Assembly (NCBI RefSeq): GCF_011734195.1
Contig: NZ_JAANTH010000001.1
Location: 310,001-374,000, forward strand
DNA length: 64,000 bases
Direction of reading: 5' to 3'
Source of the DNA: Halobacterium sp. R2-5
GTDB lineage: Archaea; Halobacteriota; Halobacteria; Halobacteriales; Halobacteriaceae
Position numbers and translations under genes: made by a program. The notes beneath the pieces are model-generated. The model was not told the DNA's origin and searched no databases. It saw only the letters and a program-made list of their open reading frames with translations. Shown in pieces: positions 33,315 to 35,377 of this stretch (the first letter of the stretch is position 1; the number at the start of each line of letters is the position of its first letter).

Positions 33315-34721
33315 GTGCCCGACACCCGCTCGACGAGCAGCATCACCGAGGGCGACCTCGTCGGCCCGATGATCCGGCTGGCGTGGCCGATGGTCGTCAT
33401 CCAGCTCCTCCAGGTGGCGTACAACCTCGCGGACACGTTCTGGCTCGGCCGGCTGTCCGGGAACGCCGTCGCCGCCATCAGCCTCGCGTTCCCGCTCGTG
33501 TTCTTCCTCATCTCCGTCGGCGGCGGGTTCACGACCGCCGGCTCGATTCTCGTCGCGCAGTACACGGGCGCGGACAGCGAGACCTCCGCGGGGAAGGTCG
33601 CCGCGCAGACGATGGGGTTCGTCGTCTCCATCGCCACTGTCCTCGGCGTCGTCGGCCACTTCCTCACGCGGGACATGCTCGCGCTGCTGCCCGCGGACGC
33701 CGAGACTGCGGCGGTCGTCGTCCCGATGGCCGCCGACTACATGGAGGTGTTCTTCCTCGGGATGCCCGCGCTGTTCGGGTTCTTCGTGTTCTCCTCGCTG
33801 ATGCGCGGCTACGGCAACACCCGGACGCCGATGCTCGTGATGTTCGTCAGCGTCGCCATCAACGTCGCCCTCGACCCGTTCCTCATCTTCGGGTGGTGGG
33901 TGTTCCCCGAGCTCGGCATCGCGGGCGCCGCCGTCGCCACCATCTTCGCTCGCCTCGTCGCCGCCGCGATGGGCGCGTACGTCCTCTTCTTCACGTCCGC
34001 CGGCCCGAGCGTCTCGCTCGCCCAGTTCGTCCCCGACCTCTCGATGGTCTCGAAGATCGTCCGCGTCGGCACGCCCAGCGCCGCCGAACAGTCCACGGTC
34101 GCGCTCGCGATGATCACGCTCACGGGGATGGTGGCGTCGTTCGCGCCCGCGGTCGTCGGCGCGTACGGCCTCGGCAACCGCCTCATCTCGCTGGTGTTCC
34201 TGCCCGCGATGGGCCTCGGCCGCGCCACCAACACGATGGTCGGCCAGAACCTCGGCGCCCAGCAGGTCGAGCGCGCCGAACAGGCCGTCCGGCTCGCCGC
34301 GAAGTCCGCCGCCGGCGTCCTCCTCGTCATCGCGGTCGTCGCCGCCGTCTTCCCGCGGCCCATCGTCGCCGTCTTCCTCAGCCCGGGCACCGAAAACGCC
34401 GCCGCGATCGTCGACTACGGCTCCACGTACGTCCGCATCCGCTCCGTCGAGTTCGTGTTCATCGGCGTGCTCCAGGTGCTGCTCGGCGCGTTCCGCGGCG
34501 CCGGCAACACCAAGACCGCGATGGCCATCTCGATGGTGACGCTGTGGCTCGGCCGCGTCCCCACCGTCTACTTCTTCGCGTTCGTCCTCGGCTGGGGCGC
34601 TACCGGCATCTGGGTCGGCATGGCGTTCGGCAACATCACCGGCGCCATCGTCGCCGCCGCGTGGTTCACGCGCGGCACGTGGAAACGCTCGCTCGTCGAC
34701 TCGGACGCCGAGGCCGCCTGA
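33315..34721 (+). CDS. MATE family multidrug/cation exporter
   Basis: The 468-residue transporter has 12 predicted helices in two similar halves. The N half starts GDLVGPMIRLAWPMVVIQLLQVAYNLADTFWLG and the C half GTPSAAEQSTVALAMITLTGMV. Such NorM/DinF-like proteins export cationic compounds using a Na+ or H+ gradient. GTG 33315 is the start, with a GTTTTCAAA element about 27 nt upstream. The tRNA-Arg gene follows 50 nt after the stop. Confidence 0.94.
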   Translation: MPDTRSTSSITEGDLVGPMIRLAWPMVVIQLLQVAYNLADTFWLGRLSGNAVAAISLAFPLVFFLISVGGGFTTAGSILVAQYTGADSETSAGKVAAQTMGFVVSIATVLGVVGHFLTRDMLALLPADAETAAVVVPMAADYMEVFFLGMPALFGFFVFSSLMRGYGNTRTPMLVMFVSVAINVALDPFLIFGWWVFPELGIAGAAVATIFARLVAAAMGAYVLFFTSAGPSVSLAQFVPDLSMVSKIVRVGTPSAAEQSTVALAMITLTGMVASFAPAVVGAYGLGNRLISLVFLPAMGLGRATNTMVGQNLGAQQVERAEQAVRLAAKSAAGVLLVIAVVAAVFPRPIVAVFLSPGTENAAAIVDYGSTYVRIRSVEFVFIGVLQVLLGAFRGAGNTKTAMAISMVTLWLGRVPTVYFFAFVLGWGATGIWVGMAFGNITGAIVAAAWFTRGTWKRSLVDSDAEAA

Positions 34722-34771
34722 CCGCCGCGACTCACAACCGTTATACCGTCCCCGCCGCTATCTCACGCCGA

Positions 34772-34844
34772 GGGCGCGTAGCTCAGCGGACAGAGCACTT
34801 GGTTCCGGACCAAGATGTCAGGGGTTCAAATCCCTTCGCGCCCG
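34772..34844 (+). tRNA. tRNA-Arg (anticodon CCG)
   Basis: A 73-nt cloverleaf is complete. The acceptor GGGCGCG pairs with CGCGCCC and has discriminator G; the D arm is GCTCAGCGGACAGAGC, the anticodon stem is CTTGG/CCAAG around TTCCGGA (anticodon CCG), and the T arm has loop TTCAAAT. It decodes CGG. No CCA is encoded and no intron is present. Its last 22 nt recur at 34971-34992. Confidence 0.97.
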
Positions 34845-34907
34845 CTTTTCAGGGACCCGCACCGGACAGCGACGCACCTGTCGCTGTCCGTGCGGTGATG
34901 GCGTAAA

Positions 34908-34992
34908 CGGGCGAGGATTTGAACCCTGGAAGTCGCAACCGCGAGCGCAGCGAGCGGTCCGTCTTCCTCCGGTTCAAATCCCTTCGCGCCCG
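34908..34992. repeat. tRNA-Arg-derived inverted pair: degenerate inverted and exact direct copies of the 3' end
   Basis: 34971-34992 repeats exactly the last 22 nt of tRNA-Arg (34823-34844). 34908-34929 is a degenerate inverted copy containing GGATTTGAACC. The two can form a stem of about 18 bp around a loop that holds CCGCGAGC/GCGAGCGG. A TTTTTT tract follows at 34998-35003. It could be an integration scar or a structured terminator. Confidence 0.75.
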
Positions 34993-35052
34993 TGTACTTT
35001 TTTACTTCGTCGGGTTTCCTCGGTCGCTGCGCTCCCTGCGGGAACCACTCCT

Positions 35053-35071
35053 CGCAAAAATCTACGCTAAA
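35053..35071 (+). repeat. CGCAAAAATCTACGCTAAA motif, second copy
   Basis: This matches 23084-23100 apart from two extra A residues. Both copies follow a stable RNA gene and a GC-rich imperfect hairpin, and both have a GTAC...TAC T-rich run about 45 to 60 nt upstream. Confidence 0.6.
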
Positions 35072-35377
35072 AACGTCCTCGCACTCGCTTCGCTCGTGCG
35101 AATGCTAACCCCAGAGTCGAGACCACGAGGGAGCGAGCTCGGCTGCGGTATTCGGGTCCCGTCACAGGCTATTACTGGTCGCCGTCGCCTCGTAGCCGGT
35201 TTCTGAACCGAAAACAGACAGAATTCTGGTGGGCGCGTCGCTGAAGAGGCCGTCCGCTCTGTCCCAGTTCCCCGTCATTACGGCCGGCGGCGGCGAGTAG
35301 CGGTTCGGAGACACGTGACCGGAGGTCGCCCCCGTTCGCAGTCGTCTCGGCCTGCTGCGTCGCGGTAGACGCCGCCC

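Follow-up and report, generated by a model that had tools for sequence, protein, structure and literature searches.

The window, by which we mean the whole stretch of 64,000 nucleotides of Halobacterium sp. R2-5 DNA that was analysed, carries an intact tRNA-Arg(CCG) gene whose 3′ end is repeated downstream in both direct and inverted orientation. The features of the locus, from left to right, are as follows.

34772–34845, + strand: tRNA-Arg(CCG), the intact target gene, called by ARAGORN and matched by Rfam RF00005 at 34772–34844 (68 bits).
34823–34844, + strand: first tail copy (T), nucleotides 52–73 of the tRNA; direct repeat D1, with block edges taken from 49 loci.
34845–34907, + strand: spacer, read from the sequence, which holds a near-perfect hairpin at 34857–34895 that is like hairpins behind other tRNA genes.
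34908–34925, + strand: inverted arm (T′), an imperfect reverse complement of T; inverted repeat I2, with helix 1 covariation in alignment A1.
34926–34970, + strand: hairpin core CTGGAAGTCGCA...GTCCGTCTTCCTCC, 45 nt; match to covariance model R1 at 34913–34983 (92.1 bits), helices 2 and 3.
34971–34992, + strand: second tail copy (T), exact; direct repeat D1.
34993–35009, + strand: outer flank TGTACTTTTTTACTTCG, including a T6 tract at 34998–35003; read from the sequence and from locus L310.

The tail GGTTCAAATCCCTTCGCGCCCG forms an exact 22-nt direct repeat (34823–34844 and 34971–34992, offset by 148 bp), in agreement with the preliminary description, which had also correctly noted the T6 tract behind the second copy and the lack of an integrase between the two; none was found there, and the unit contains no ORF. 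The degenerate inverted copy that it reported is likewise present and pairs with the second tail, but it extends from 34908 to 34925 and not to 34929. This arm consists of CGGGCG and AGGATTTGAACC, with part of the acceptor middle absent, and its pairing with the second tail copy encloses GAGCGCAGCGAGC (34943–34955). That the extra copies form a stem was borne out, with T′ and the second tail closing a long one: folded as single-stranded DNA, 34904–34992 reaches −27.3 kcal/mol compared to −15.2 ± 2.6 in shuffled sequences (z −4.6), and 0 of 200 shuffles fold equally well. Above its thresholds Rfam finds nothing at the locus besides the tRNA, and a terminator scan of 34700–35200, in which loops were limited to 3–8 nt, found none. 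The suggestion that the copies form a structured terminator was not supported, as no stem directly followed by a T run was called, the T-tract flank is also present behind a bare tRNA tail (L090), and some units of the same family are found on the 5′ side of protein genes in antisense orientation.

A 121-nt query from the window has a match in 42 of 59 genomes, its own included, and all 40 of the better-matching loci that were fetched have a same-strand tRNA gene just upstream, with many isotypes represented; in most of them the right end is a copy of the upstream tRNA's tail. Because the unit recurs in many genomes and its copies fit the adjacent tRNA, a local chance repeat and a remnant of an unrelated tRNA were both rejected. 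The covariance model R1 finds the unit in 25 of the 26 genomes of the family, and in a sample of the phylum 31 of 196 genomes match, all 31 belonging to one order, of which at least two genomes have no match among those listed. Four genomes together contain 108 R1 matches, 99 of them within 1 kb on the 3′ side of a same-strand tRNA gene, such that 72 of 169 tRNA genes have a unit on their 3′ side and 97 do not. Five of the other nine matches are at protein genes, two (L167 and L171) follow a tRNA missed by the Rfam search, one (L174) ends in a decayed tRNA-Ala tail, and one (L169) is a hairpin with no clear target duplication. The window's own genome has an R1 match within 1 kb at 19 of its 42 tRNA genes and, by another measure, a copy of the gene's own tail (at least 14 of 19 positions) within 330 nt downstream at 18 of the 42. 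The tail match at the window locus is 21 of 21, compared to 11–15 of 21 at best elsewhere in a control on 13 congeneric loci, which covered 900 nt per locus, outside the tRNA and on one fixed side; taken with the 18 tRNA genes this indicates that the repeat exceeds chance. The preliminary description had proposed looking for the unit behind many tRNA genes in its own genome and in other haloarchaea, and such dispersal is what is found. Its notion of a dispersed tRNA-derived repeat is thus correct as to the scattering of the unit behind many tRNA genes across the order, and is correct only in part.

A strict core pattern, run against about 85,000 GTDB species genomes, recovered 60 stretches, all from archaeal records, the titles of which name Halobacteria taxa with two exceptions ('Euryarchaeota archaeon' and 'uncultured archaeon'). 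A same-strand tRNA is located no more than 700 nt upstream of 55 of the 61 hairpins in this set, and in 48 of these 55 its own tail is matched with at most 3 mismatches, the rest mostly showing an indel or decay. The remaining six hairpins have no antisense tRNA either; in four of them the tRNA either runs off the end of the locus or is obscured by N. Locus L345 has two earlier tail copies and no tRNA within 490 nt of locus, and in L384 (Halorubrum sp. CSM-61) a tRNA-Gly-like sequence runs from its T-loop straight into the hairpin core. In the plasmids and viruses searched no copy of the unit was found, the best of 80 loci among the matches listed for a looser viral pattern scoring 18 bits (E 0.2), and a plasmid- or virus-borne repeat was accordingly rejected.

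The 35 units in alignment A1, which omits L031, L034, L059 and one identical unit, share a common plan of T′ arm, CT, GnnAG, T, CGC(A), variable stem-loop, CGTCTnnC, TCC, and tail. In this alignment 94.3% of the cells are paired and two-sided changes occur at 15 of the 21 pairs; 74 cells have such changes compared to 18.4 in shuffles, with 0 of 500 shuffles as high, and the signal is destroyed by sliding the pair partners. The inverted arm, which the preliminary description had considered unexpected for an att scar, is a constant component of the unit family and covaries with the target. Among the units of the window's genome the right arm fits its own tRNA best, either alone or tied, in 16 of 17, and the left arm does so in 8 of 17, with a mean rank of 4.1 of 42. 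A covarying structure that lies on the same strand and close to a tRNA in nearly all cases, and is spread through a whole order, could be a functional RNA of the tRNA 3′ trailer, with the hairpin and second tail acting in transcript processing, termination or regulation. We regard this as decidedly unlikely, given the patchy presence of the unit with differing core types at one tRNA within one genus, the 97 of 169 tRNA genes without it, its occurrence at protein genes, in some cases antisense at the 5′ end, and the lack of an Rfam family or a called terminator.

The extent of the duplicated block was determined from 49 of 77 loci, the other 28 being skipped as having no clear second copy. At positions −4 to −1 before T54 the tRNA and its copy are identical in 15, 20, 40 and 43 of the 49 loci, respectively; identity is then 40–49 of 49 through the block, with 48 at +19 (nucleotide 73) and 32 at +20. 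These sharp edges indicate that copying starts at G52/G53 and stops at the mature 3′ end of the tRNA. The junction is G/TTC (the slash marking the point of joining) or near it in most cases, and G/TAC at nuoB/nuoCD. This last example is one of several at protein genes, where the inverted arm repeats the gene end, in reverse orientation, and not a tRNA. Units duplicate the 3′ end of aspS, including the stop codon (L168 and L173), the 3′ end of a gene for an enolase-superfamily sugar-acid dehydratase (L170 and L172; enolase itself was rejected as the target, the family matches being to the dehydratase), and the 5′ end of a low-molecular-weight phosphatase gene (PF01451; L117 and L119), and one is located at the nuoB/nuoCD junction (L175). 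The phosphatase gene is empty in genome G013 and has one unit in its congener G019, with flanks that align well on both sides, and two units in each of G025 and G017.

Occupancy is similarly variable at tRNA-Arg(CCG). Among 13 congeners, an exact second copy lies nearby in three (the window's genome, G009 and G001), a degenerate copy in one (G005) and a 3′-truncated unit in one (G008), and in eight there is no second copy within 900 nt. The G001 core at this tRNA is quite different from that of the window. Between the window core and that of a tRNA-Met unit in G009 there is a difference at 1 of 44 sites, and between it and the core of a tRNA-Phe unit in another family at 2 of 44; the comparison was restricted to cores of similar length that matched one regular expression. 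That different tRNAs have near-identical cores suggests that the cores travel between tRNA genes, with arms that fit the host gene. Whole units are also repeated in tandem (L035 and L176), and L176 (G022:C1:1877774–1879400) is an array of about eight near-identical units of ~111 bp behind a single tRNA-Gly. Tandem repeats of this kind, and direct and inverted copies of one local sequence, might be produced locus by locus through strand switching or slippage at the tRNA tail. Such copying errors are a very improbable source of the units, as the core is common to unrelated loci and to another family, and could not be supplied locally, and the block edges are constant; local copying may nonetheless homogenise T and T′.

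The duplicated gene tail, the restored gene, the patchy occupancy and the empty site constitute an insertion signature, and the earlier suggestion of an integrase-type footprint is to that extent correct, though only partly so. We think it rather probable that the unit is a non-autonomous, dispersed mini-element lacking an integrase, which is inserted site-specifically at gene ends and whose hairpin serves as the recombination site. Such an element would insert preferentially at the T-loop of tRNA genes, with the junction by G53/T54 (...G/TTC...), and would leave behind an intact gene with its full tail, followed by the spacer, the hairpin and a second exact tail. A recombinase acting in trans, most likely a tyrosine recombinase, would join element and target at G/TTC; the T′-core-T hairpin would be a folded recombination site, similar to an integron attC, and the T′ arm could aid the choice of target through pairing. 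The matching of the arms to a new gene is the weakest step, and either gene conversion or quasi-palindrome correction could bring it about. More tentatively, and with considerable doubt, the units may represent a kind of mobile DNA that relies on pairing to complete its insertion, with a guide-like T′ complementary to a conserved gene end, an arm that is rewritten for each gene, and a lower stem that is half element and half host. If true, this would be integron-like or guide-directed recombination without coding cargo, operating across the tRNA genes of an archaeal order.

Several observations count against a mini-element. First, only 8 of 17 left arms have their own tRNA as the best fit. Secondly, one hairpin (L169) is without a clear target duplication. 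Thirdly, no copy was found on a plasmid or virus, and hence no transfer form is seen. Finally, the unit has no recombinase of its own and could not be linked to one elsewhere; integrases do lie near seven hairpins, and these are those of larger elements. Tyrosine recombinases (PF00589) are present in 25 of the 26 family genomes, the exception being a genome of 72% completeness. A Y1 transposase (PF01797) was found neither in the window's genome nor in G003, G006, G008 and G009, which have 13–25 R1 matches each among the matches listed, and a Y1 transposase was rejected as the resident enzyme on this basis. Among the matches listed (153 hairpin and 150 integrase rows, with three rows coming from other searches), at least eight hairpin-integrase pairs are less than 6 kb apart, and seven of the eight have one divergent layout. 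The class-A hairpin was considered as the attP of integrases 440–580 bp away (seven rows), which the sequences did not bear out. At six of these seven loci the integrase is separated from the class-A hairpin by one more tail copy or by sequence resembling the tail, which indicates that these integrases belong to larger elements on the same tRNA.

The seventh locus is L310. Relatives of its integrase occur, at 35–46% identity, in 12 virus records (those of SNJ2, HHPV4 and HRPV9 included), and also in plasmids. L310 lies in the congener G010, where a ~44 kb island (G010:C1:34568–79045; L132, L310 and L396–L398) occupies the same tRNA-Arg(CCG). The island is of lower GC content (48–56%), has two tyrosine-recombinase-like ORFs and others resembling island ORFs, and ends with an inverted-arm hairpin and a tail end. 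At this far junction, ~44 kb from the tRNA itself, a hairpin of a different class comes after the integrase, and then the tRNA-Arg(CCG) tail end and an outer flank nearly identical to that of the window. A tyrosine recombinase beside a hairpin, a tail end and nearly the same flank, all at the same tRNA, would fit a scar of large integrative elements, in which a left tail copy and a right att junction persist after loss of the interior and do not move by themselves; Haloferax gibbonsii also has elements described as bounded by a tRNA and a tRNA remnant (PMC7921747). We nevertheless consider a scar unlikely, because the constant small size, the tandem like units, the protein-gene targets of the same plan and the near-identical cores at different tRNAs would not be expected from random deletions. 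Further, kb-size DNA precedes the hairpin in one single unit (L184) among the 108 matches in four genomes. This is an HNH-domain ORF (L184:276–1300, in G010) between the tRNA-His tail and a hairpin with no left arm; since that arm is missing the ORF was rejected as unit cargo, and may be a separate insertion. The known attP cores of the nearest integrases, which are 13–15 nt of tail with no hairpin, also argue against a scar. No T′-core-T was found in the attP of six IntSNJ2-type viruses or in that of pHK2, which in turn weighs against a mini-element.

Comparison with known systems reveals both common features and departures. With integron attC sites the units share a recombination-type junction by G/TT, an arrangement in tandem arrays, a long imperfect hairpin in which the outer and inner arms are paired, the spacers are not and the tip varies, and a hybrid outer stem whose right arm belongs to the neighbour. 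However, the attC R′ core has the consensus GTTRRRY, and the outer arm of the tRNA units, GTTCRAA, does not conform to it. The units also differ from integrons in that their arms follow the target gene, the targets are the ends of tRNA or protein genes, and the window unit is free of ORFs. PF00589 proteins occur in 25 of 26 genomes of the family, but no integrase is tied to the units and no integron integrase was demonstrated. Integron cassettes and attC sites have also been reported in archaeal MAGs (PMC9668308). The IntSNJ2-type elements of haloarchaea are described as integrating at tRNA 3′ ends, with the tail duplicated and the gene restored (PMC8371274, PMC7911831). The unit resembles them in the duplicated tail of its target tRNA and the intact gene, and an integrase of this type is present at the far end of the G010 island; it departs from them in having no integrase, in its size of ~150 bp, in duplicating 20–22 nt, and in its lack of likeness to their annotated attP cores, which are 13–15 nt long and without a hairpin.

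Partial tRNAs beside full tRNA genes in Haloferax gibbonsii LR2-5 have been called remnants (PMC7921747), and the passage of that report dealing with them describes no hairpin, inverted arm or family. The small mobile repeats, MITEs and PATEs of Haloquadratum are reported as short, non-coding, dispersed and mobilised in trans, with inverted repeats or palindromes (PMC3119063); those repeats are fixed sequences belonging to the element, whereas in the unit it is the target gene that sets the sequence of the outer arms, and ~22 nt of gene tail are duplicated. MITEs have a target duplication and terminal inverted repeats common to all copies; in the unit T′ and T form an inverted pair and the tail is present twice, but both follow the target gene. 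A derivative of IS200/IS605 (a PATE) is not in keeping with the five genomes that have no PF01797, nor with the 22-nt duplication, since PATEs have none. By these tests the unit is neither an attC, as judged by core consensus, nor an intrinsic terminator, nor is it an element that carries an integrase or one of Y1 type; by analogy, it may work like an integron cassette with its attC, or like a miniature tRNA-targeting integrative element.

We found no description of the hairpin unit family in the literature covered, from which subscription papers were mostly absent, such that an earlier mention is possible; the unit appears to be a small mobile element, widespread and of a kind not described before. 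With their precise edges, empty sites, arrays and protein-gene targets, the units offer a ready test bed for tRNA ends as landing sites, and if the hairpin is a folded recombination site then these archaea would possess an attC-like system. In haloarchaea they may also cause tRNA fragments, att sites and 3′ trailers to be misannotated.

Other short sequences occur in the same surroundings. A GCGACG-nnnn-TGTCGC hairpin (window 34857–34895; also L080, L096 and others) follows many tRNA genes, and is found behind some tRNA genes without a class-A unit. A second dispersed sequence, GTACYTTTTTRC...GCAAAAATCTACGCTAAAAAC (window 34993–35110; also L021, L084, L090 and L186), is located behind both tail copies and bare tRNA tails. 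At L030, L065, L068, L073 and L096 there are further, shorter tail copies that start with TCCC and are preceded by other small hairpins; these are perhaps scars of elements with a 13–15-nt core.
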